Below, in pieces: positions 39,901 through 50,257 of a DNA stretch of 64,000 nt. The stretch covers positions 1 through 64,000 of the forward strand of contig JAFSKV010000053.1 in assembly GCA_017448795.1 (NCBI GenBank), in the 5' to 3' direction. A model generated the notes under the pieces. That model was not told the DNA's origin. It worked only from the letters and a program-made list of their open reading frames with translations, and searched no databases. Numbering within the stretch: the first letter of the stretch is position 1; every line of letters starts with the position of its first letter. The position numbers and the translations under genes were made by a program. This DNA comes from Synergistaceae bacterium (GTDB lineage Bacteria > Synergistota > Synergistia > Synergistales > Aminobacteriaceae).

Positions 39901-41502
39901 ATGAGAGAACACGCTATTTTCCTTCTGCTGATTTTTGCGGCCTTGTTTTTCCCGGGCCTGGCATCAGCTCTCGAAGCCCCCGAAAATTACACCGCCGCAA
40001 TTTCAGCTGTCGACTTTTATCCGTCAGGCGCAAAGTTCACCTTCACGGTTGAGCCGCAGGGAAGCGACGGCGATTTCAGGGCAGTAATCCCGGGAGCTTT
40101 CACGCCGGAATCTATAAGGCTGGTGAATCCTGAAACTGTTTACGGCGACATTTACGCTGCAAGTTTCACGAGGACAAAATGGACTCCTCCTCAGCTTGAG
40201 GCTCTAAGGCTTCAGGCGGAAGAGCAGGCAAGAACAGTCAGCGACCTGAGCGCGAGAAAATCTGCCCTTGAGCAGACACTTTCACTCCTCAAGAACTCCA
40301 ATCCCGACAAGTCCAAGCCTGAAGAACTACTCCGCTACATAAGGGACGCGCAGAATGTCAGGCTTGAGGCAGAGAATGAATTAGCCCTCCTCAAGGCCGA
40401 GCTTTCACGGGAACAGGAGAAACTGCGGGCATTGAACACTGAGCTTCAGGGCAGGATGCCGGACAATGACTCAAGCTACACTGTAGTTACGGGGCAGGCA
40501 GGCGGTACGGTTTACATTGAGGCCTTCACACGGTCAGCCTCATGGAAGCCGCGCTACACTCTCAATCTCGCGACGGCAAGCGGGGCTGTTGAGGTCAAGA
40601 TGTACATAAGGGCATCGCAGAAGACAGGCCTGGATTACACGGGCAATATGACACTTCACACTAAGACGCCCGGAGACATCGTGACAGTCCCGGAAATTCC
40701 CCCCCTCAAAGTCGGCATAAAGCCAAAGGAAGAAGTCGTCGCCTCAATGTCAACTGTGAGCCTGTCGAGAACAAACAGACAGTTCAAATCAGCAAGGGCC
40801 GCCATGCCTGAAGCTGAAATGTTCATGGCCGAAGATGCCGCCGCCGAGTATGACAGTGCACCCGCCGCGCCTGCGCCGAGAGCCCCGGCAGTACGTGAGA
40901 CTCTTGCTGACAGGACGCTTGATATTGAGGGGACACTCGCGGGGGACGGAACAGAACGTGAGTTTGAGGTCATCATGAGCGACCTTTACCTTGACAGCAG
41001 GATTGAGCTGACACTCATCCCTGAGCAGAGGCCGGAAGCCTGGATCGTCGCCAGCATGGACGAGAAAAACGAGCACCTTATACCGGGCGAGGCAGAGCTA
41101 AGGGTTGATTTCCATCCGTCGGGAAAAATCTACCTTCAGGAGTACGGAATAGGACAAAGGAGAATCCCATTCGGCTACGCAAACCAGATTACCGCCAAGA
41201 AAGAACGCCTTGTTGAGAAGACGGGCGTGCAGTGGTTCAGCGGAGTCTTCACGAGCGGCTACAAGCTGGAAATCACAAACGGCACAAAGGATGAGCAGAC
41301 TGTGATAGTCCGCGACCGCCTGCCGATTCCTACCGATGACAAAATCAAGCTGGAAGTCAAACGCATAGAGCCTAAAGAGAAGGAACGCGACAAGGAGAAC
41401 CGCCTTACGTGGGAGATAACTATTCCTGCCGGAGCAACAGTGCCGATAGTTGTCGACTACACATTGAGCTACCCTTCAGGCGAGGAGCTGCAATACAAAT
41501 AA
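39901..41502 (+). CDS. MuiA-like secreted protein (DUF4140/DUF4139)
   Basis: 533 aa. A signal peptide ends near ASA (about residue 24). The N-terminal DUF4140 has AAISAVDFYPSGAKFTFTVEP, followed by a coiled coil (about 95-190). The DUF4139 part has YTVVTGQAGGTVYIEAFTRSASWKPRYTLNLA and a C-terminal KERDKENRLTWEITIPAGA. MuiA family members are named for effects on mucoidy or biofilm, but the biochemical activity is unknown. The stop overlaps the next start (TAATG), so it heads the operon that runs to lpxB. Confidence 0.8.
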   Translation: MREHAIFLLLIFAALFFPGLASALEAPENYTAAISAVDFYPSGAKFTFTVEPQGSDGDFRAVIPGAFTPESIRLVNPETVYGDIYAASFTRTKWTPPQLEALRLQAEEQARTVSDLSARKSALEQTLSLLKNSNPDKSKPEELLRYIRDAQNVRLEAENELALLKAELSREQEKLRALNTELQGRMPDNDSSYTVVTGQAGGTVYIEAFTRSASWKPRYTLNLATASGAVEVKMYIRASQKTGLDYTGNMTLHTKTPGDIVTVPEIPPLKVGIKPKEEVVASMSTVSLSRTNRQFKSARAAMPEAEMFMAEDAAAEYDSAPAAPAPRAPAVRETLADRTLDIEGTLAGDGTEREFEVIMSDLYLDSRIELTLIPEQRPEAWIVASMDEKNEHLIPGEAELRVDFHPSGKIYLQEYGIGQRRIPFGYANQITAKKERLVEKTGVQWFSGVFTSGYKLEITNGTKDEQTVIVRDRLPIPTDDKIKLEVKRIEPKEKERDKENRLTWEITIPAGATVPIVVDYTLSYPSGEELQYK

Positions 41503-42662
41503 TGGGACAGAATAACTTTCTCAAGTGGATAACAGTTCCGCCCGTTGTCGCAATCCTGACGATAATGCTGGCGCGGGCTATGGGTACCGGGAGCGTTGTA
41601 GGCGAAGTTGACCTGTCTATATGGGGGCTTGTCTGGCTTCTGTTCATCATGATGAGCATACTTTACGGGCTGTTCATCGTTCACGGCTTCAACATAGGGC
41701 TTGTGTCATTGCAGGCTCTTGCGCAGGGTGTCCTTTTGTGTCCCATGTCTATAACTTACGGCGCGAGAATGTTCCAGTGGCTCGGCGTGATCATAGCTGT
41801 ATGCGGGGCGGCGGCACTGCTCGTAGCGTACAATCAGGAAGAGAACGAGCGCACAAAGACTCTCAATGCCCCCGTAGAAATCGAGAATGACGTGAAGAGA
41901 ATCCCGGCTAATTTCGCGATAACTGACGACACAGGAGCAATTCTGAATCTCACAGAAGACATGCTTGAAGTTCTCGGAATAACACGGATGGGTTCAGTAG
42001 GCAAAAATATATCCGACTGGTTCAGCCCCGTATCAAAGACAGCCGAAATCAACGGGAAAATCTGGGACGTTGAACGCAAGAGCATAGATGACGGTAAACG
42101 CTTCTACTTTGAGCTGAAACCGAAGGGGCTTCCTACGGGAGACTCAGGCGGGGACAGCCAGAACGGGAGCAATGAGCCTGTGGAGTTCACAGACCCTGAC
42201 ACGCAGCTTCATGCTTTCCGTTACGGTATGGCAAGGATTTCCGATGAGCTTTACCGGGCCGGGAGATACAACCATCCTATCAGCGCGTTCATGATACGGC
42301 TAGTTTTCCCGCAGCTGCTGCCTGATGATGACATGGACAAATACATTCGTCCTTTCAGGGCATATTGTGCGAGGGTGAGGAAGGATTTGCGGCAGTCAGA
42401 CACGGTGATACAGGCGGGAGAGTCGCAGATTATCGCGGTGCTGTCGGAATGTCCGTACCAGATGGTAGAGAATATCATCGAGAGAATATCCGCAATCGTC
42501 AACATTCTTGCGCCGACATTCGAGGAGTTCCTTCACGTTACGGTGCTGAATGTCTACGAGACCTACGAGGGAGGCACTAATCTTCCGTCAGCGCAGGATC
42601 TCATAGACAAGCTGACACAGCAGATGACCCGGAAATATTCGGCGACAGCTTTATCACAATGA
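41502..42662 (+). CDS. Membrane protein with PAS-like and degenerate GGDEF-like parts
   Basis: 386 aa from ATG 41502 (overlapping the previous stop). I do not recognise it firmly. The N-terminal third has about four hydrophobic segments (residues 7-25, 35-55, 58-80, 88-108). Residues 130-200 look PAS-like (FAITDDTGAILNLTEDMLEVLG). Residues 230-380 have the size and pattern of a GGDEF fold (FRYGMARISDELYRAGRYNHPISAFMIRL, RKDLRQSDTVIQAGESQIIAVLSECPY), but no GG(D/E)EF signature is present. It may be an inactive or ligand-sensing remnant domain. It sits between the MuiA-like and LptF genes and overlaps the latter by 4 nt. Confidence 0.65.
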   Translation: MGQNNFLKWITVPPVVAILTIMLARAMGTGSVVGEVDLSIWGLVWLLFIMMSILYGLFIVHGFNIGLVSLQALAQGVLLCPMSITYGARMFQWLGVIIAVCGAAALLVAYNQEENERTKTLNAPVEIENDVKRIPANFAITDDTGAILNLTEDMLEVLGITRMGSVGKNISDWFSPVSKTAEINGKIWDVERKSIDDGKRFYFELKPKGLPTGDSGGDSQNGSNEPVEFTDPDTQLHAFRYGMARISDELYRAGRYNHPISAFMIRLVFPQLLPDDDMDKYIRPFRAYCARVRKDLRQSDTVIQAGESQIIAVLSECPYQMVENIIERISAIVNILAPTFEEFLHVTVLNVYETYEGGTNLPSAQDLIDKLTQQMTRKYSATALSQ

Positions 42663-43762
42663 AACGGAGCTTACTCAACAAGCTGATACTAGGAGCATGT
42701 GCCGGGCCGTTCATGTTCGGGATATTGATATTCGTGCTGATATTTGTTGCCGGGGATCTCTTGTTCCAAGCGGCAAAACTCATCATAGAGCAGGGAGTCG
42801 CGCTGAGTGTTGTAACGCGGCTGTTCTTCTACCGTCTTCCTGAAGTTGTCGTGATGACTATACCGATGTCGTCGCTTCTGTCTACATTGCTGGGGATGTC
42901 CACGCTGAACGGAGGAAGTGAGCTTATCGCGCTTCGTTCGCTTGGGATTCCTTTCACGAGGATACTGCGGCCTGTGTTCTTCGCGTCAGTGATGATCTCT
43001 GTGATAGGTTTCGGGCTGAATGAGACTGTTGTACCGTTCGGGGCAATAGCGGCGGATAGGCTGATGAAGTACGAGATCATGAAGCATCAGGCATCGGTTG
43101 TGCAGGAAAAGGTTTTCCTACGAGATGAGGAGGACGGGAAATTGAAGCGTGTGCTGTACATTGACGAGCTTGACCCGGAGAAGGGAATACTCAGCGGAAT
43201 AATGATGCACGAGTTTGACAGCAGCGGCAGGTTATCCCACACTCTCAACGCAAGGCGTGGGACGTGGCAGAACTCGCAGTGGTGGATTGAGGACGGAAGG
43301 ATGTATGACGTTGACGCGGAAGGTGAAGTGAGATTGCTGCTTCGTTTCGAGCGTCAGATGCTTGCGCTGAGATTGTCGCCCGAACAGCTCCAGCGTTCAA
43401 CCAGAAGACCCGGAGACATGAGCGCGCACGAACTGTGGAGCTACATCAAGCATGGTGAGGCCATAGAGTCCCAGTTGTCGCAGTTGTGGGTGATGTTCCA
43501 CCTGAAGACTGCTGTTCCTTGGGCGTGCGTGATAATGGCTGTTCTTGGCGCGTCATTCGGAGCGTCAAGGCGGGGCAGGTCAGGCGGCGGAGTCGGCTTC
43601 GGCATCAGCGTGGTAATCGTGTTCGCGTACTATGTTGTGATGTCCATGTGCCGGGCATTCGGTGAGGCTGGGGCGATTCCTCCTGTGATTGCCGGGTGGG
43701 GGCCGAATATCGTGTTTCTTTTCGCGGCTTTGTACTTTGCGCGGAGGGTTGACAGGATTTGA
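42659..43762 (+). CDS. LptF/LptG (YjgP/YjgQ) LPS export permease
   Basis: 367 aa with two blocks of three membrane helices around a periplasmic jellyroll domain, the LptF/LptG layout. Motifs include the N-terminal VTRLFFYRLPEVVVMTIPMS and the typical IALRSLGIPFTRILRP. LptF and LptG together with LptB2 extract LPS from the inner membrane. Only one is in this cluster, so the partner is elsewhere or the protein acts alone in a pair. The start (ATGA) overlaps the previous gene, and lpxI starts inside its stop (TTGA). Confidence 0.88.
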   Translation: MKRSLLNKLILGACAGPFMFGILIFVLIFVAGDLLFQAAKLIIEQGVALSVVTRLFFYRLPEVVVMTIPMSSLLSTLLGMSTLNGGSELIALRSLGIPFTRILRPVFFASVMISVIGFGLNETVVPFGAIAADRLMKYEIMKHQASVVQEKVFLRDEEDGKLKRVLYIDELDPEKGILSGIMMHEFDSSGRLSHTLNARRGTWQNSQWWIEDGRMYDVDAEGEVRLLLRFERQMLALRLSPEQLQRSTRRPGDMSAHELWSYIKHGEAIESQLSQLWVMFHLKTAVPWACVIMAVLGASFGASRRGRSGGGVGFGISVVIVFAYYVVMSMCRAFGEAGAIPPVIAGWGPNIVFLFAALYFARRVDRI

Positions 43763-44574
43763 GCATTGCACTTATTGCGGGCGGCGGGGTGCTCCCTGCT
43801 GAGATTGCCCGCAGGCTTTCTTCACTTCAGGAGCCGGGACTCGTGCTGTCTCTTGGTGCTGACGCTGAGGCACTGAGGCCTTACGCCGGGAAAATCATCG
43901 AGATGAGGACTCCAAGTCTTGGCCGTGCAATCCGCGAAATGAAGTCATACGGTGCTGACAAACTCATCATGGCCGGGCTGATTCCCAAGAAGCTGATCTA
44001 CTGCCTGCCGCTTATATTCGATCCGTTAAGCCGCAAAGTTCTGCGCGGGACTCTTCATGACGATCATTCATTGCTCGGCTCAATCGTGAAGGCCTGCGAG
44101 GATGAGGGAATAAGCGTGATACCTTACTGGCATATACTCCCGGAATTTCTCGCTCCTCCCGGAAAATTGTCCTCCCGTCAGCCAAAAGAATCCGAGCTGT
44201 CAGATGTCGAATACGGGCGTGAAATCCTGAAGGTGATACTGCCTTGCTCGTTCGGTCAGGGTGTGTGTGTTGCTGACGGCTCAGTTGTTGCTGTCGAGGC
44301 TATGGAGGGGACGGACGGAATGATTGCGAGGGCGGGGGGAATTTCCGGGCGCGGTGTTGTGGTGAAGATGATGAAGCCGGGTCAGGATATGAGGTATGAC
44401 CTTCCGACTGTCGGGATCAGGACACTTGAGACGATGCATGAGGCTGGCTTGACGTGCTTGGCTGTTGAGGCTGGAAGGACGCTGATACTTGAGCCTGAGA
44501 AATTCTTTGAGCTTGCGGACAAATACAAGATTGCGGTGTGGGGGATAAAGAATGCAGAGAAAATTCAAAGCTGA
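43759..44574 (+). CDS. lpxI: UDP-2,3-diacylglucosamine pyrophosphatase, LpxI type
   Basis: 271 aa, from a TTG start that overlaps the previous stop. LpxI (DUF1009) makes lipid X from UDP-2,3-diacyl-GlcN and replaces LpxH in some diderms. The N-terminal Gly-rich ALIAGGGVLPAEIAR and the C-terminal active-site region EGTDGMIARAGGISGRG and DLPTVGIRTLETMHEAGLTCLAVEAG are typical. It is in the same run as lptF/G and lpxB, which confirms lipid A synthesis. Confidence 0.93.
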   Translation: MSIALIAGGGVLPAEIARRLSSLQEPGLVLSLGADAEALRPYAGKIIEMRTPSLGRAIREMKSYGADKLIMAGLIPKKLIYCLPLIFDPLSRKVLRGTLHDDHSLLGSIVKACEDEGISVIPYWHILPEFLAPPGKLSSRQPKESELSDVEYGREILKVILPCSFGQGVCVADGSVVAVEAMEGTDGMIARAGGISGRGVVVKMMKPGQDMRYDLPTVGIRTLETMHEAGLTCLAVEAGRTLILEPEKFFELADKYKIAVWGIKNAEKIQS

Positions 44575-46180
44575 CACTGACAAAGACAATGCGGTGAAAG
44601 AAGCCCTGCTGTATATCAATGAAGTTCTCCCGCTGGTGAACATGACTCAGAGGGAGCAGCGCAGGACGGAGCTTATGTGCGAAGAGTCATTGATGAGGCT
44701 AATGGAGCATTCGAACTTCAGACGGGCGGATTATATTGCGGTGAGGGTGAGAAAATCATTCGGCAATGTGAATATTATTCTGTCAGTGCCTGGAAATGAG
44801 TTTGACTTTTACGGGCTTATTGAAGACGAATTGCGCGAGGAGTTTTCGCCGTATGATAATGATTACGGGGCTTCCAACATATTGCTTCGCATGTTCCTGC
44901 CGGATTTGCGCTACAGGCATTCGGGGAAATTCAGCGTTATCACTATAAGTGCTGTGAGGTCGTCATATTCTCTGCTCCTGAAAACTTTATGGGCATTGGC
45001 GTTCGCGATAACAGCAGGATTGATCCTTCGCATGAGCCTCCCGGAAAATTACCTGTCAGTCATCAATGATGAAGTACTGATGCTAGTGTATGAGATGTTC
45101 ATTGACGCTACTAAAATGTGTACCCTTCCTATAGTCCTGTTGTCGATAATGTTATGCACAGCTGATATACACGGCTTCTCCGGGCTTGCGGAAATCGGGA
45201 AAAGGCTTGCCGGCAGTTTCGTATTCACGCAGATATTCGCGGTCATTGCGGGTTTCGGGCTGGTTATGATTTTCGGAGCTGGGGCGGGTCTGGACATGTC
45301 CGCGTTTCAGGGTGAAGCCTCCGTTAATGCTGCCTCGTTCACGGTCGCTGGAATGCTGAAGAACATTATCCCCGACAACGTTATGAAGCCCATAGTCGAC
45401 AGCAACGCATTACAGCTTACGGTACTGGGAAGCATTCTAGGAATCGCGGCGGGACTCACAGCCTCAAAGCGTGTGCTAGAAATAGCCGATGAACTCAGCA
45501 ACATTTTCATGAAGGTAACTGAGATGTTCATGAACTTGATGCCGCTTGCTGTGTTCTGTTCCGTTGCGTCAATGATAATCACGGTTGGAGCGGATGCGCT
45601 TTTGTCCGTATTGGGGATGTTTCTTGCGGCTATGCTGGGATTTGTCATGATGAATCTGCTTTACTGCGCCATGATACGAACAGCGGGGCTTAATCCCGTT
45701 CACATGTTCAGGAAGTCAGCGAAGACAATGGTAACAGCCTTCACGACATGCTCAACAAGCGCGGCGATTCCTGACAGCCTCAACGCCTGCAAAGCTATGG
45801 GAATTTCGTATAAGCTGTATTCATTCGCAATCCCTGTAGGATCGTCGCTGAACAAAAACGCTTTCTGCCTTTCACTTGCGGCAATAACACTCACAGCCGC
45901 TAACATGTACGGAATCAGCCTGTCATTGACACACCTTGCCTTACTCGGCGCGTTAATTATCGCAATAGCTCCCGGAACTTCATGTACTCCGATAATAGCT
46001 ATTTCGCTTCTGTTCGAGGATATAGGCTGCCCTTTGAACGCTGTGGGAATCATCATGGCAATATATCCCCTTCTTGACATGGCCGACACAGTAACATCCT
46101 GTAACGGCACAATAGCTTCAACACTTACGACAGCAAAGCGGCTTGGACTTCTTGACACTGAGGAATATACGAAGTCATAA
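44552..46180 (+). CDS. Symporter with an N-terminal RsbW-like domain, copy 1
   Basis: 542 aa, overlapping lpxI by 23 nt. Residues 1-140 have the length and pattern of a small GHKL/RsbW-type ATPase: an N-box-like RRTELMCEESLMRLMEHSNF and a strand ending VRVRKSFGNVNIILSVPGNEF. The conserved Asn of the N-box is not present, so ATP binding is doubtful. Residues 145-540 are a DAACS (SLC1, GltP-like) transporter with about 8 helices and two re-entrant loops. The tip motif is TTCSTSAAIPDS, and the usual NMDGT motif is replaced by LNKNAF. The family brings in amino acids or dicarboxylates with Na+ or H+. The substrate is uncertain. Confidence 0.78.
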   Translation: MQRKFKADTDKDNAVKEALLYINEVLPLVNMTQREQRRTELMCEESLMRLMEHSNFRRADYIAVRVRKSFGNVNIILSVPGNEFDFYGLIEDELREEFSPYDNDYGASNILLRMFLPDLRYRHSGKFSVITISAVRSSYSLLLKTLWALAFAITAGLILRMSLPENYLSVINDEVLMLVYEMFIDATKMCTLPIVLLSIMLCTADIHGFSGLAEIGKRLAGSFVFTQIFAVIAGFGLVMIFGAGAGLDMSAFQGEASVNAASFTVAGMLKNIIPDNVMKPIVDSNALQLTVLGSILGIAAGLTASKRVLEIADELSNIFMKVTEMFMNLMPLAVFCSVASMIITVGADALLSVLGMFLAAMLGFVMMNLLYCAMIRTAGLNPVHMFRKSAKTMVTAFTTCSTSAAIPDSLNACKAMGISYKLYSFAIPVGSSLNKNAFCLSLAAITLTAANMYGISLSLTHLALLGALIIAIAPGTSCTPIIAISLLFEDIGCPLNAVGIIMAIYPLLDMADTVTSCNGTIASTLTTAKRLGLLDTEEYTKS

Positions 46181-46192
46181 GGAGGCAACAGC

Positions 46193-47830
46193 ATGAAGTT
46201 TACGGTCAGTAGCACCAATACAGATGAAGCATTATCCGGCGCGCTGGGATACATACATGAACAGCTTGCGGCAATGAAGCTGAAGACTAAGGACGCAATC
46301 CGGGCGGAATTGATGTGCGAGGAGTCATTAGTGAGCCTGATGGACAACGCTGACTTTTCCGGGACTAGGAATTTCTCGGTGAACGTCAGAAAAGTTTTCG
46401 GCACAGTTACTGTAGACCTGGCTGTCCCGGGAAGGGAGTTCGAGTTTTCTTGGGGGACTGGGATTCAGACGCTGAAGGATGACGAGGAGCTTCAGGAATC
46501 CTACGAGGCAATACGGAATATAGTCCTCCGTTCATTCTCAGGGAACATAAGGTACAGGCATTCCGGGAATCTCAACACGGTACGTATAAAGGCGGTGCGT
46601 TCGAGTTATGCCGGGCTGTACAAGACGCTTGCGGCATTGTTCCTCGCTGTTGTGTCAGGAGTCGCGCTGAGGAATTTTGCCCCCGCTGAGGTCTGCGCTT
46701 CCGTCAACAATAACATACTCGCCCCAATACGCACGGTGTTCCTGAACGGCCTAAAGATGTGCGCTGTCCCGATAGTGTTCTGTTCTGTCGTGTCATGTAT
46801 TGCTGACATGGGCGGGCTCTCAGGGATGAAGCGGACGGGAGGAAGGCTCTTCAGGTATTTCGCGGCGGGCATGGCGCTTAGTCTTGCGCTGGGTTTGTGC
46901 TTCATGTACATATTCAGGCCTGGCGGGGGAGTGAATCTAGTCGCAGCTTCTAGTGAGACCGTGCAGGCCGGGACAGTGTCATTCATCGGTATGATTACGA
47001 ACCTAGTAGCCGGAAATGTCATAAGGCCGTTCCTTGAAGGGGACATGTTACAGATCATGGTGCTTGCGTTTTTCGTTGGGCTGGCAATCTCCCTGACAGA
47101 CGCAAAAATCCTCCGCAAAGTTTCCAGTGAGCTTAACATGACATTCATGAAGATCACGGAAATATTCCTTTACCTTACACCGCTTGTGATGTTCTGCTCG
47201 GCGGCCTCGATGATTATCACGGCAGGAGCTGGGACTCTCGTCTCGGCGGCGGGGATAACGTTCACGCTGATATTCGGCCATGCTGTGATACTCGCGATTG
47301 TCTGTGTGGCAGTGAAATTCCGGGCCGGGTTAAGTCCCTTCACGATGCTGCGGAAATCCGCCCCCATGCTCGCAACAGCCTTCAGTACGTGCTCAAGCAT
47401 AGCCGCGATTCCTGACAGCATGAAGTGCGCCGACGCAATGGGAATTTCGCCGTCCCTGTACTCGTTCTCAGTCCCTGTAGGCGTGTCAGTCAGCAAGATA
47501 ACTACCCCGATGTATTACGCGGTTATGGTGCTGTCAGCGGCCAATCTTTACGGCGTGGACATGACTCCGTCAGCAATAATCCAGCTCTCAGTAACAATCT
47601 TGCTTCTTACGGTTACGACTCCTTCAATGCCTGGCGGAGGGGTAATCTCGCTGTCGGTGCTTCTTGCGCAGGCGGGATGTCCTCTTGAGTTCGTCGGAAT
47701 AGCTGTGAGCATCGAGATGATGATAGATTTCACGGGGACAATGACAATCTGCCAGGGGAATTTAGTCTGCACACTTCTTGCGGCGGCGGATGACGGGCTT
47801 CTTGACCGCGTGAAATACAACCGGCCATGA
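46193..47830 (+). CDS. Symporter with an N-terminal RsbW-like domain, copy 2
   Basis: 545 aa, a full-length paralog of the preceding gene, 12 nt away, with GGAGG upstream. The same RsbW-like front (RAELMCEESLVSLMDNADF, VNVRKVFGTVTVDLAVPGREF) is followed by a DAACS transporter (FSTCSSIAAIPDSMK, then VGVSVSKITTPMYY in place of NMDGT). Many helix residues differ, so the substrate range may differ. Both copies lie between lpxI and lpxB, an unusual place for a transporter. They are presumed to be co-transcribed with them. Confidence 0.78.
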   Translation: MKFTVSSTNTDEALSGALGYIHEQLAAMKLKTKDAIRAELMCEESLVSLMDNADFSGTRNFSVNVRKVFGTVTVDLAVPGREFEFSWGTGIQTLKDDEELQESYEAIRNIVLRSFSGNIRYRHSGNLNTVRIKAVRSSYAGLYKTLAALFLAVVSGVALRNFAPAEVCASVNNNILAPIRTVFLNGLKMCAVPIVFCSVVSCIADMGGLSGMKRTGGRLFRYFAAGMALSLALGLCFMYIFRPGGGVNLVAASSETVQAGTVSFIGMITNLVAGNVIRPFLEGDMLQIMVLAFFVGLAISLTDAKILRKVSSELNMTFMKITEIFLYLTPLVMFCSAASMIITAGAGTLVSAAGITFTLIFGHAVILAIVCVAVKFRAGLSPFTMLRKSAPMLATAFSTCSSIAAIPDSMKCADAMGISPSLYSFSVPVGVSVSKITTPMYYAVMVLSAANLYGVDMTPSAIIQLSVTILLLTVTTPSMPGGGVISLSVLLAQAGCPLEFVGIAVSIEMMIDFTGTMTICQGNLVCTLLAAADDGLLDRVKYNRP

Positions 47831-48957
47831 AGAATATCTTTGTGTCATGCGGCGAGGTAAGCGGGGACATTTACGCGGGCGCATTCATCCGTGAGGCACT
47901 GAGGATTTCCCCTTCAGCAAGAATATGGGGAATGCTAGGCGACAACGGAGTGAAGGCCGGGGGTATTGCGGCATGGAGCTACGAGGAGTTGAAGCTCATG
48001 GGACTGCTGGAAATCCTCCCGGCAATCCCGCGAATCTTGCGGCTGAAACGCAACATTTCCCGCGAAATCATGGCCGTGAATCCTGACGCTGTAGTGCTGA
48101 TTGACTGCCCTGACTTTCACCTTATGCTTGCGCGTACGCTGAGGAAGGCCGGGTATTCCGGGAAGATCGTCTCGCTCATTCCTCCTACTGTGTGGGCTTG
48201 GCGTTCCGGGAGAGTCCGAAACCTGCGGCGGGATTTTGACGTTTGCCTTCCGCTGTTCTCGTTTGAGCATGAGTTCCTGCTGTCGAACGGGGTAAATTCG
48301 CGCTGGAAGTCTCATCCTTTAGTCCGCGAGATGGAGGGCGTGAGAGTCCCTGAGTCATTCCGTGAGAGGTTCGGCCATGAGAGAGTGATTGCGCTGATGC
48401 CCGGAAGCAGACGCTACGACATAAGATTTCACCTAGATATATTGCTTGGGACGGCTGAAATTCTGAGGCGTGAGGGATATTGCCCGGTGTTCTCTGTTGC
48501 TGAGGGACTGAGCGCGGGGCTTGCTGACGAAGTGAGGGGACGTGCCGGGAGTTCTGGCTTTGCTGTTTGGGAGGAAAGCGGGCGTGAATTGATGCTTGGC
48601 GCGGAGGCTGTGGCGGGAGTCTCCGGGACTGTGTCAGTTGAGGCTATGTTACTGCGGCGGTTCATGGTCGTCATCTACAACATGAGGCGGCTGAACTACG
48701 CAATCTTGAAGCGGCTTGTCCATGTCCGCAATATATCAATACCGAACATGCTGACAGGCAGGCAGGTTTACCCGGAATTGCTATGTGATGAGGCCACGCC
48801 GGGAAATATTGCGCGTGAGCTTGCGGGGTATCTGAGTGATGAGGGAGTGAGGCGTGAGACTGATGCTGCGCTGCAGGAGGCCCGGCGGTCTATGGGGGAA
48901 TATGATGCGGCGAGGTTCTGGGCTGAAACTGTTTCTGGTATAATCGGCAAATCCTAG
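47827..48957 (+). CDS. lpxB: Lipid-A-disaccharide synthase
   Basis: 376 aa, normal length. GT19 enzyme that joins UDP-2,3-diacyl-GlcN and lipid X, the product of LpxI. Motifs: FVSCGEVSGDIYAGAF at the start, LIPPTVWAWRSGRVRNLRRDFDVCLPLFSFE, ALMPGSRRYDI and the C-terminal RRLNYAILKRLVHVRNISIPNMLTGRQVYPELL. It starts inside the stop of the second symporter (ATGA). Element B follows nine nucleotides after its stop. Confidence 0.95.
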   Translation: MKNIFVSCGEVSGDIYAGAFIREALRISPSARIWGMLGDNGVKAGGIAAWSYEELKLMGLLEILPAIPRILRLKRNISREIMAVNPDAVVLIDCPDFHLMLARTLRKAGYSGKIVSLIPPTVWAWRSGRVRNLRRDFDVCLPLFSFEHEFLLSNGVNSRWKSHPLVREMEGVRVPESFRERFGHERVIALMPGSRRYDIRFHLDILLGTAEILRREGYCPVFSVAEGLSAGLADEVRGRAGSSGFAVWEESGRELMLGAEAVAGVSGTVSVEAMLLRRFMVVIYNMRRLNYAILKRLVHVRNISIPNMLTGRQVYPELLCDEATPGNIARELAGYLSDEGVRRETDAALQEARRSMGEYDAARFWAETVSGIIGKS

Positions 48958-48965
48958 ACACACGA

Positions 48966-49001
48966 AAGGAGCTTGACACAAGAATCATGGCCGTGTACAA
49001 T
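48966..49001 (+). promoter_or_regulatory. Promoter of repeat element B
   Basis: AAAGGAGC, then TTGACA (48973-48978), a 17-nt spacer and TACAAT (48996-49001). The layout is identical to element A at the left window edge and heads the glycosyltransferase at 49070. It starts nine nt after the lpxB stop. Confidence 0.75.
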
Positions 49002-49073
49002 CGCACATCGCACATCGCACATCGCCTGAATTATTCCCTTTTCCTGATTGACCTTACGGAGGCCGGGCAATGA
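48987..49073 (+). CDS. Leader peptide ORF across the heptamer array, coupled to a glycosyltransferase
   Basis: A 28-codon frame beginning MAVYNRTSHIAHR crosses the heptamer array and ends in the sequence caATGA, whose ATG is the start of the glycosyltransferase. The present three units place the leader stop exactly at the start, an arrangement typical of translational coupling. A change of one unit would move the leader into another frame and break that overlap. The AAAGGAG site is 15 nt before its ATG, which is long, and a transcript starting at the promoter above would not contain this ATG, so translation of the leader is unproven. Confidence 0.4.
   Translation: MAVYNRTSHIAHRLNYSLFLIDLTEAGQ
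49002..49025. repeat. Tandem heptamer microsatellite, 3 full copies
   Basis: Unit cgcacat, three perfect copies plus cgc, beginning right after the -10 box of element B. Same unit as at 1-33 (reverse strand). Confidence 0.9.
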
Positions 49074-50257
49074 GGGTAGTCCACATTCAGCCCGGAGGCT
49101 TCTATGACGGCTTAACCTATCAGGAGAACCTTCTCACAAAATGGCAGCACAGGAACGGACACGACGTAACAGTAATCACAACAAGATGGTCCGCCGACGC
49201 AAACGGAGTCCCCTGCCTCGTCCCGGAGAGCATGTATGACCGCGTCAACGAAGACGGAGTGAGGCTTATACGTCTTCCCCTGACCTGCGCGGACAGGTAC
49301 ACATTCGGCTATGATGAGCTGTACAGGACGATTGAGGCAATCAGCCCGGAAATCCTGTTTATACACGGGGTCGACCACAACACAAGCGCGCTCACAGACT
49401 ACCTCGCAAGACACAGGGAAGTAACAGCCTATGCGGACAATCACAAAGACTTCTCAAATTCCGGCTCATCCCTGCCCAAAATCATCCGGCGTATCGCAAA
49501 GCTGCTCCTGAAAACAGGACTGCCTGGGCTGTTGACCGCAAGACAACCGCGCAAACTCATACCCTGCGTGAAGAAATTTTACGGGGTACTTCCTGCCCGT
49601 GTCGACATCTTGAAGTATTACTACAAAATCCCGGCGGAAAAATGCGAACTCCTCCTCATGGGTGCTGATGATGATCTCGTCTCTGAGGCCTCAAACCCAA
49701 GCGTCAGGCAGAATATCCGCAACCAGTACGGCATCTCCCCTGATGACTTCCTCGTGATGACCGGCGGCAAAATCGACATCCCGAAATCCCAAACCCTGCT
49801 GCTCATGGAGACCGTAAGGAATCTCAATGCTGAACGCGGGAATGTCAGGCTGATTGTGTTCGGGCCGGTTGTCCCTGAGCTGAAGGCAAGGTTTGACGCT
49901 CTTGTTGACGGCAAGATTGTACAGCATGTCGGCTACGTGAAGGGGAATGACTCGTACAAGTACTTTGCGGCCTCAGACCTTGTTGTGTTTCCCGGCCGTC
50001 ATTCGGTCTACTGGGAGCAGGTTACAGGGCTCGGAGTCCCCATGCTCTGCAAGGAATGGGACGGCACAAAGCATGTCGATCTTGGCGGCAACGTGCGCTT
50101 CCTAAGACATGACAGCACGAAGGAAATCCAGCGTGAAATCGAACGCCTCTTGGACAATCCCGGCGAGTACGGGAAGATGAAGGAAGTTGCCCGGCGCGAA
50201 GGAATGAAGGTGTTTTCCTACAGACGGATAGCCCGCCAAAGCCTCGAAGAAATCTAG
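49070..50257 (+). CDS. GT4-like glycosyltransferase behind repeat element B
   Basis: 395 aa, a GT-B glycosyltransferase. The N-terminal half starts MRVVHIQPGGFYDGLTYQEN and the C-terminal half has FGPVVPELKARFDALV, YKYFAASDLVVFPGRHSVYWEQVTGLGVPMLC, the usual donor-binding region with a Glu-Gln instead of Glu-rich pair. It has GGAGG seven nt upstream of the ATG. The gene is separate from the nickel operon that follows. Being directly behind the repeat element, its expression is the likely output of that switch. Sugar specificity is unknown. Confidence 0.82.
   Translation: MRVVHIQPGGFYDGLTYQENLLTKWQHRNGHDVTVITTRWSADANGVPCLVPESMYDRVNEDGVRLIRLPLTCADRYTFGYDELYRTIEAISPEILFIHGVDHNTSALTDYLARHREVTAYADNHKDFSNSGSSLPKIIRRIAKLLLKTGLPGLLTARQPRKLIPCVKKFYGVLPARVDILKYYYKIPAEKCELLLMGADDDLVSEASNPSVRQNIRNQYGISPDDFLVMTGGKIDIPKSQTLLLMETVRNLNAERGNVRLIVFGPVVPELKARFDALVDGKIVQHVGYVKGNDSYKYFAASDLVVFPGRHSVYWEQVTGLGVPMLCKEWDGTKHVDLGGNVRFLRHDSTKEIQREIERLLDNPGEYGKMKEVARREGMKVFSYRRIARQSLEEI

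Follow-up and report, generated by a model that had tools for sequence, protein, structure and literature searches.

The subject of this report is a pair of tandem genes, P1 and P2, in a 64,000-nucleotide stretch of DNA from a Synergistaceae bacterium (positions 1 to 64,000, forward strand, of contig JAFSKV010000053.1, assembly GCA_017448795.1; hereafter the window). Each gene encodes a cytosolic domain of the RsbW/SpoIIAB type, devoid of the residues of an ATP site, fused to a transporter of the SLC1/DAACS family in which most residues for sodium and substrate have been exchanged for others. Members of this family are the textbook example of sodium coupling. We consider it an even chance that P1 and P2 are sodium-independent SLC1 carriers bearing an ATP-dead docking domain and traded among genomes through a slot between the lipid A genes lpxI and lpxB. 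They appear to represent a regulated, sodium-independent transporter type unstudied so far; a literature search on GHKL-symporter fusions found no paper in the collection searched.

Architecture of P1 and P2

P1 (44552..46180, + strand, 542 residues) consists of a pseudo-GHKL/RsbW-like domain (residues 1-~137) followed by an SDF/SLC1 transporter (~139-542). P2 (46193..47830, + strand, 545 residues) has the same architecture and is 39% identical to P1. The genes belong to the 2.54 Mb Synergistaceae genome G000, where the window lies on contig 41; the records of related genomes are gut metagenome-assembled genomes, goat and sheep among the sources. A first-pass annotation of the DNA, made from its letters alone, had described two DAACS fusions in tandem, and both reading frames were found where it had placed them, with an SDF domain in each: residues 141-529 of P1 match the Pfam family SDF (PF00375) with E 2e-63 and 215 bits, and residues 143-531 of P2 with E 5e-76 and 257 bits (curated cut-off 27.9). 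The full model of P2 adopts the GltPh/EAAT elevator fold (Z 44.2 and 2.2 Å over 391 residues against GltPh 6x13), and the closest solved structure to P1 by sequence is 9bgz (E 3.7e-38). The transporter fold that the annotation had assigned is accordingly sustained; the ordinary symporter that it had implied is not, the sodium and substrate residues being largely replaced.

The N-terminal domain and its degenerate ATP site

The N-terminal domain (~137 residues) is conserved across the genus, with invariant residues that include E44, G80, F83, F85 and Y121 (P2 numbering). Unaided, it matches HATPase_c_2 in 7 of 25 family members (best E 2.3e-6). A structure model was needed because a profile search of the domain against PDB sequences returned a single chance match. 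The AlphaFold2 model of P2 residues 1-140 (pLDDT 82, pTM 0.77) finds its clear best matches in SpoIIAB, UsfX and RsbW (Foldseek E 1.3e-4). It superposes on 8ih8_D with Z 13.5 and 2.3 Å over 114 residues, anti-sigma chains scoring Z 11-13.5 and histidine kinase domains mostly Z 7-9. The GHKL/RsbW-like fold proposed in the first-pass annotation, which had suggested this very prediction, is thereby borne out, as are the cytosolic N-terminal placement of the module and the absence of the N-box Asn.

To locate the ATP motifs, both domains were aligned with intact RsbW domains from within the phylum. In SpoIIAB, the N-box Asn is a magnesium ligand and Glu46 the catalytic base (PMC10345196). The N-box remnant of P1 reads EESLMR (44681..44698, + strand), with Glu45 kept at the position of Glu46 and Arg49 at that of Asn50; in P2, it reads EESLVS (46319..46336, +), with Glu44 kept and Ser48 at the Asn50 position. 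The G1 box has degenerated from D-x-G to V-P-G in both proteins (LSVPGNEFDF, 44780..44809, + in P1; LAVPGREFEF, 46418..46447, + in P2), and the glycines of the GGLG motif are gone at the G2-box position (GASNILLRMF, 44867..44896, +, and EAIRNIVLRSF, 46505..46537, +, respectively). The Asn of the N-box, the Asp of G1 and the glycines of G2 are therefore all missing from P1 and P2, whereas free RsbW proteins of the phylum retain them. Loss of the N-box Asn is not universal among the fusions, since a few relatives (L040 9403-11121, L130 and L082) have Asn at this position; in these too, G1 is without its Asp and G2 without its glycines. Judged by these motifs, the domain is dead as an ATPase. The N-box Glu is kept and invariant; a kinase role would be precluded by the lack of ATP, and the residue may serve in structure or docking. 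Gating of the carrier by a partner protein through this domain is possible.

Fusions from Clostridia that carry canonical sodium motifs are also degenerate in all three ATP boxes. For this reason the loss of ATP in the domain probably preceded that of sodium in the carrier, an order that is subject to a tree whose root is not fixed.

Sodium and substrate residues of the transporter

In GltPh, the NMD motif of transmembrane helix (TM) 7 forms the nexus of the sodium sites, Met311 reaching the Na2/substrate site, and the type of substrate is set by Asp394 and Arg397 (PMC12668577, PMC7682989). In place of NMDGT, TM7 reads NKNAF in P1 (45851..45865, + strand) and SKITT in P2 (47492..47506, +), so that Lys435 of both proteins occupies the Met311 position and Asn436 or Ile436, respectively, that of Asp312. 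TM8 of P1, LDMADTVTSCNGT (46073..46111, +), keeps Asp394 and has Arg397 changed to Asp, Asn401 to Ser and Asp405 to Thr; TM8 of P2, IDFTGTMTICQGN (47723..47761, +), also keeps Asp394, with Arg397 changed to Gly, Asn401 to Ile and Asp405 to Asn. The tip of helical hairpin (HP) 2 in P1 reads APGTSCTP (45968..45991, +), with loss of the GVPGAG motif, and P2 retains HP1 (TCSSIAAIP) and a PGGG tip in HP2. The sodium-coupled signature of the family, NMD in TM7 and Asp405 in TM8, is hence replaced by NKNAF and Thr in P1 and by SKITT and Asn in P2.

These replacements are widespread among the fusions. The tree set comprises 61 fusions, of which 45 have Lys311 and 52 have lost Asp405, and 21 stand-alone SDF proteins, none of which shows either change. 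As the stand-alone SDF proteins of the same genomes have canonical sodium residues, the replacement is not an effect of composition. A known H+-coupled clade of SLC1 is marked by M311L, D405N, a hydrophobic residue for T/S92 and a putative proton site, S279E (PMC12668577). By alignment, the changes in P1 and P2 touch the positions of this signature with different residues: both proteins have Lys311, D405N is confined to P2, and at positions 92 and 279 P1 has Thr and Ser, respectively, and P2 Gly and Ile. Taken together, the residues predict sodium-independent transport by P1 and P2.

Distribution and phylogeny of the fusion

The first-pass annotation had also proposed to look for the fusion in other genomes. 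Within Synergistota, the genus is represented by 43 genomes; a profile of the N-terminal domain matches 32, and about 29 of them contain fusions (in G018, in pieces only); among the remainder, G005 and G033 have ordinary GHKL proteins and G092 fragments only. The fusion is also found in 2 genomes of a neighbouring genus, and 3 further matched genomes have RsbW-like proteins without SDF. Recurrence in about 29 of 43 genomes and in a second genus, in the same slot in 20 genomes, indicates that the fusion is not due to chance. When 391 genomes from the class to which Flavonifractor belongs were sampled, they yielded three Clostridia fusions that retain NMDGT and Asp405 (L086, L102, L103) and four divergent fusions with Lys311 (L104-L106, L112). 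In a tblastn search of P2 against 72,556 plasmids, the matches listed cover the SDF part and none among them spans the whole fusion.

In a tree of fusions and stand-alone SDF proteins, built without the motif columns, one branch separates the two groups with weak support (67). Fusions of the lpx slot form a single group of 28, with a support of 96; its odd member, L043, lies on a contig without visible lpx genes.

The lpxI-lpxB slot and lateral exchange

The slot is bordered on the left by lpxI (43759..44574, + strand), whose 3' end overlaps the start of P1 by 23 bp, and on the right by lpxB (47827..48957, +), whose start overlaps the stop of P2 by 4 bp (ATGA). In 17 genomes, the interval from lpxI to lpxB is complete on a single contig and contains one to three fusion genes; with G003, G004 and G019, in which the fusion is found in the slot across contig breaks, the slot is occupied in 20. 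In another 18 members of the genus, the two lpx genes are direct neighbours, to within 12 bp. The slot of G092 (L179, C181:19600-22200) holds 432 bp that code for the C-terminal 118 residues of a P1-type protein, at 74% identity, and that represent a scar of loss by deletion. On the lpxI+lpxB tree, nine changes are required to explain where the slot is occupied (9-10 over the bootstraps). With at least 7-9 changes needed, a single vertical insertion is ruled out as the whole story. The position within a lipid A operon reported by the annotation thus stands. The data do not point to a function in lipid A synthesis, as the lpxI-lpxB pair stands without fusions in 18 genomes and homologues are located elsewhere; with the fusions missing from roughly half of the genomes, a lipid A role for P1 and P2 is unlikely.

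Fusion genes move laterally between related genomes. Between the window genome and G003, synonymous divergence (dS) amounts to 2.4 for lptG, 1.85 for lpxI and 1.77 for lpxB, as against 0.32 for P1 and 0.38-0.46 for P2, and DNA identity rises from ~0.70 to 0.90 at the lpxI/P1 border. Similarly, P2 has a dS of 0.38 with respect to G031, with flanks at 1.25-1.6. An unlinked fusion locus also has a low dS (0.67), so that the fusions seem to move in general. Synonymous constraint as the cause of these low values is contradicted by a control pair, G007-G094, in which the dS of the fusion (0.26) is not below that of lpxB (0.17). The ratio of nonsynonymous to synonymous divergence (dN/dS) between recent copies is about 0.17-0.2, and the proteins are therefore under purifying selection; in these copies, the cytosolic N-terminal domain retains 85% identity and the membrane part 90%.

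Outside the slot, one fusion (L061) has an M20 peptidase and a DcuC-like gene as neighbours, and another (L058) lies in a citrate lyase/TctA cluster. Both neighbourhoods fit organic or amino acid traffic and do not fix the substrate of P1 and P2. Upstream of a further fusion gene, three similar secreted small proteins (266-276 residues) are encoded in tandem (L051:9726-12329). Beyond the slot in the window, a glycosyltransferase gene (49070-50257) stands between lpxB and a NikK-like gene; it is a lineage-specific insertion, the other genomes examined running directly from lpxB to the NikK-like gene. An Rfam search of window positions 40000-50000 gave no match.

RsbW-like domains on other transporters

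Similar domains are attached to two other types of transporter. GlnQ-type ATP-binding cassette (ABC) ATPases end in a degenerate RsbW-like domain that lacks the N-box Asn (L127:4360-5481, L124:17-1129, L185, L187, L188, G000 C48:9804-10166). Of the 43 genomes in the genus, 41 are matched by the profile of this C-terminal domain; 4 copies read as full ABC ATPases. In Clostridia, MATE transporters carry a C-terminal RsbW-like domain (L113:285-2039, L190:163-1857, L191, L192, L193, L194), with N-box and G1 intact in L191, L193 and L194 and degenerate in L113 and L190. A gene of another Synergistota family (L120:3922-5487) encodes an RsbW-like domain without the N-box Asn, apparently placed before a protein of GNAT-type appearance.

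Several of these genes adjoin components of partner-switching systems: the SDF fusion L114 lies next to a SpoIIE-RsbW phosphatase, the MATE fusion L190 next to a PP2C gene and the MATE fusion L192 next to a STAS protein. Components of such systems also occur in the window genome itself: STAS proteins that stand alone, one of them at C1:115481-115762, three SpoIIE phosphatases and RsbW domains with intact motifs. Partner-switching control is on this circumstantial evidence the leading idea for the N-terminal domain.

Proposed mechanism and competing explanations

In the mechanism that we propose, an ATP-dead RsbW/SpoIIAB domain is joined straight to the cytosolic end of the scaffold helix TM1 of an elevator-type SLC1/DAACS carrier, where it would most likely serve to dock a protein or to promote oligomerisation. 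Binding of a cytosolic partner, of the STAS type or similar, or else the packing of three N-terminal domains in the trimer, could bias the elevator or hold it shut. Sodium would no longer be used, Met311 being Lys and the sodium ligands Asp312 and Asp405 gone. As Arg397 is lost and Asp394 kept, acidic side chains are disfavoured as a feature of the substrate; the cargo may be a small amino or carboxylic acid, which P1 and P2 would move without any ion, as uniporters or exchangers, or together with protons. The genes act like accessory cassettes swapped among related gut Synergistaceae via the lpxI-lpxB slot, where they would use the transcription and translational coupling of the lpx operon. 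A bolder version, which we regard as doubtful, would make them a further coupling class of SLC1, in which the tethered Lys311 replaces sodium and allows ion-free transport, the ATP-dead domain docks a partner-switching protein and the domain was added independently to MATE and ABC transporters. The tethered lysine would then keep the pocket substrate-ready, and control would shift from the ion gradient to the docked domain.

Several points weigh against the sodium-independent, partner-docked carrier. Lys311 arises by only ~5 changes on the tree, so that its tie to the loss of Asp405 is not statistically independent. Some fusions retain NMDGT and Asp405, and the dead GHKL domain and the loss of sodium are therefore not coupled. 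No partner-switching gene lies beside P1 and P2. Finally, P1, which has lost the HP2 tip as well as Asn401 and is more degraded than P2 in that tip, may be non-transporting. A competing idea is that of a transceptor, in which P1 and/or P2 would not transport and the SDF fold would bind a small molecule while the pseudo-GHKL domain signals to a cytosolic partner. The extent of residue loss, the retention of a regulatory-type domain and the strong divergence of the tandem copies all speak for this explanation, which we nonetheless judge rather unlikely since P2 retains HP1, the HP2 tip and Asp394, and no output partner is encoded beside the genes. A shade less likely still are ordinary ion-coupled, possibly H+-coupled, symporters of amino or dicarboxylic acids in which the N-terminal domain merely aids folding or assembly. 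The SDF fold is intact by homology and model, and M311L and D405N accompanied the switch to H+ coupling in other members of SLC1 (PMC12668577), D405N being present in P2; however, Lys311 is not the known H+ signature, positions 92 and 279 (not Glu) do not follow that clade, and the extra domain is strongly conserved.

The remaining explanations are far less probable. That the slot is a diversity locus of membrane proteins traded under phage or bacteriocin receptor pressure would account for the copy number of 1-3, the strong divergence, the lateral exchange and the patchy presence, but is made quite improbable by the low dN/dS between recent copies and by a cytosolic domain slightly more divergent than the membrane part. 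Slightly less credence is due to a service of the pair to lipid A synthesis, for instance through supply or withdrawal of a metabolite at the step from LpxI to LpxB: the location is constant across 20 genomes, with overlaps between the genes, yet the slot is empty in 18, has undergone repeated gain and loss, and other fusions occupy unrelated loci, one of them among citrate lyase/TctA genes. The sensing of a nucleotide by the GHKL-like domain to gate transport, as the first-pass annotation had envisaged, is the least probable. It draws on the RsbW/SpoIIAB fold, the conserved N-box Glu and the Asn of the few relatives that bear it; the loss from P1 and P2 of all the ATP-site residues that free RsbW proteins keep, the incomplete sites of those same relatives and the equally degenerate boxes of fusions with canonical sodium motifs leave it unsupported.

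How coupling is lost or replaced in SLC1 is an open question, recently approached with a reconstructed ancestor. A natural family that holds both intact and dismantled sodium motifs, with a lysine at a key spot, makes the steps testable in real proteins. Likewise, the presence of a dead anti-sigma domain on three unrelated types of transporter suggests a general control of bacterial transporters by partner proteins.

Comparison with known systems

The C-terminal ~400 residues of P1 and P2 resemble the SLC1/DAACS carriers (GltPh, GltTk, EAATs, GltP, DctA) and share their HP1/TM7/HP2/TM8 layout; unlike them, P1 and P2 have Lys311 in a replaced NMDGT, lack Asp312, Asp405, Arg397 and Asn401, and possess an additional N-terminal domain. 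A precedent for sodium-independent transport in SLC1 is provided by the Anc-Int transporter (9bgy, 9bgz, 9bh0), in which allosteric changes abolish coupling while the sodium sites and NMD are retained (PMC12668577); in P1 and P2, by contrast, these very sites have been taken apart. With SpoIIAB, RsbW and UsfX (HATPase_c_2, PF13581), the N-terminal domains have the fold and the N-box Glu in common, and they differ in the absence of Mg/ATP residues from all three boxes and in their fusion to a membrane carrier. SLC26/SulP carriers are likewise fused to one half of an anti-sigma partner-switching pair, the STAS half (PMC8256260); P1 and P2, in contrast, carry the RsbW half, ATP-dead and N-terminal, on an unrelated carrier.

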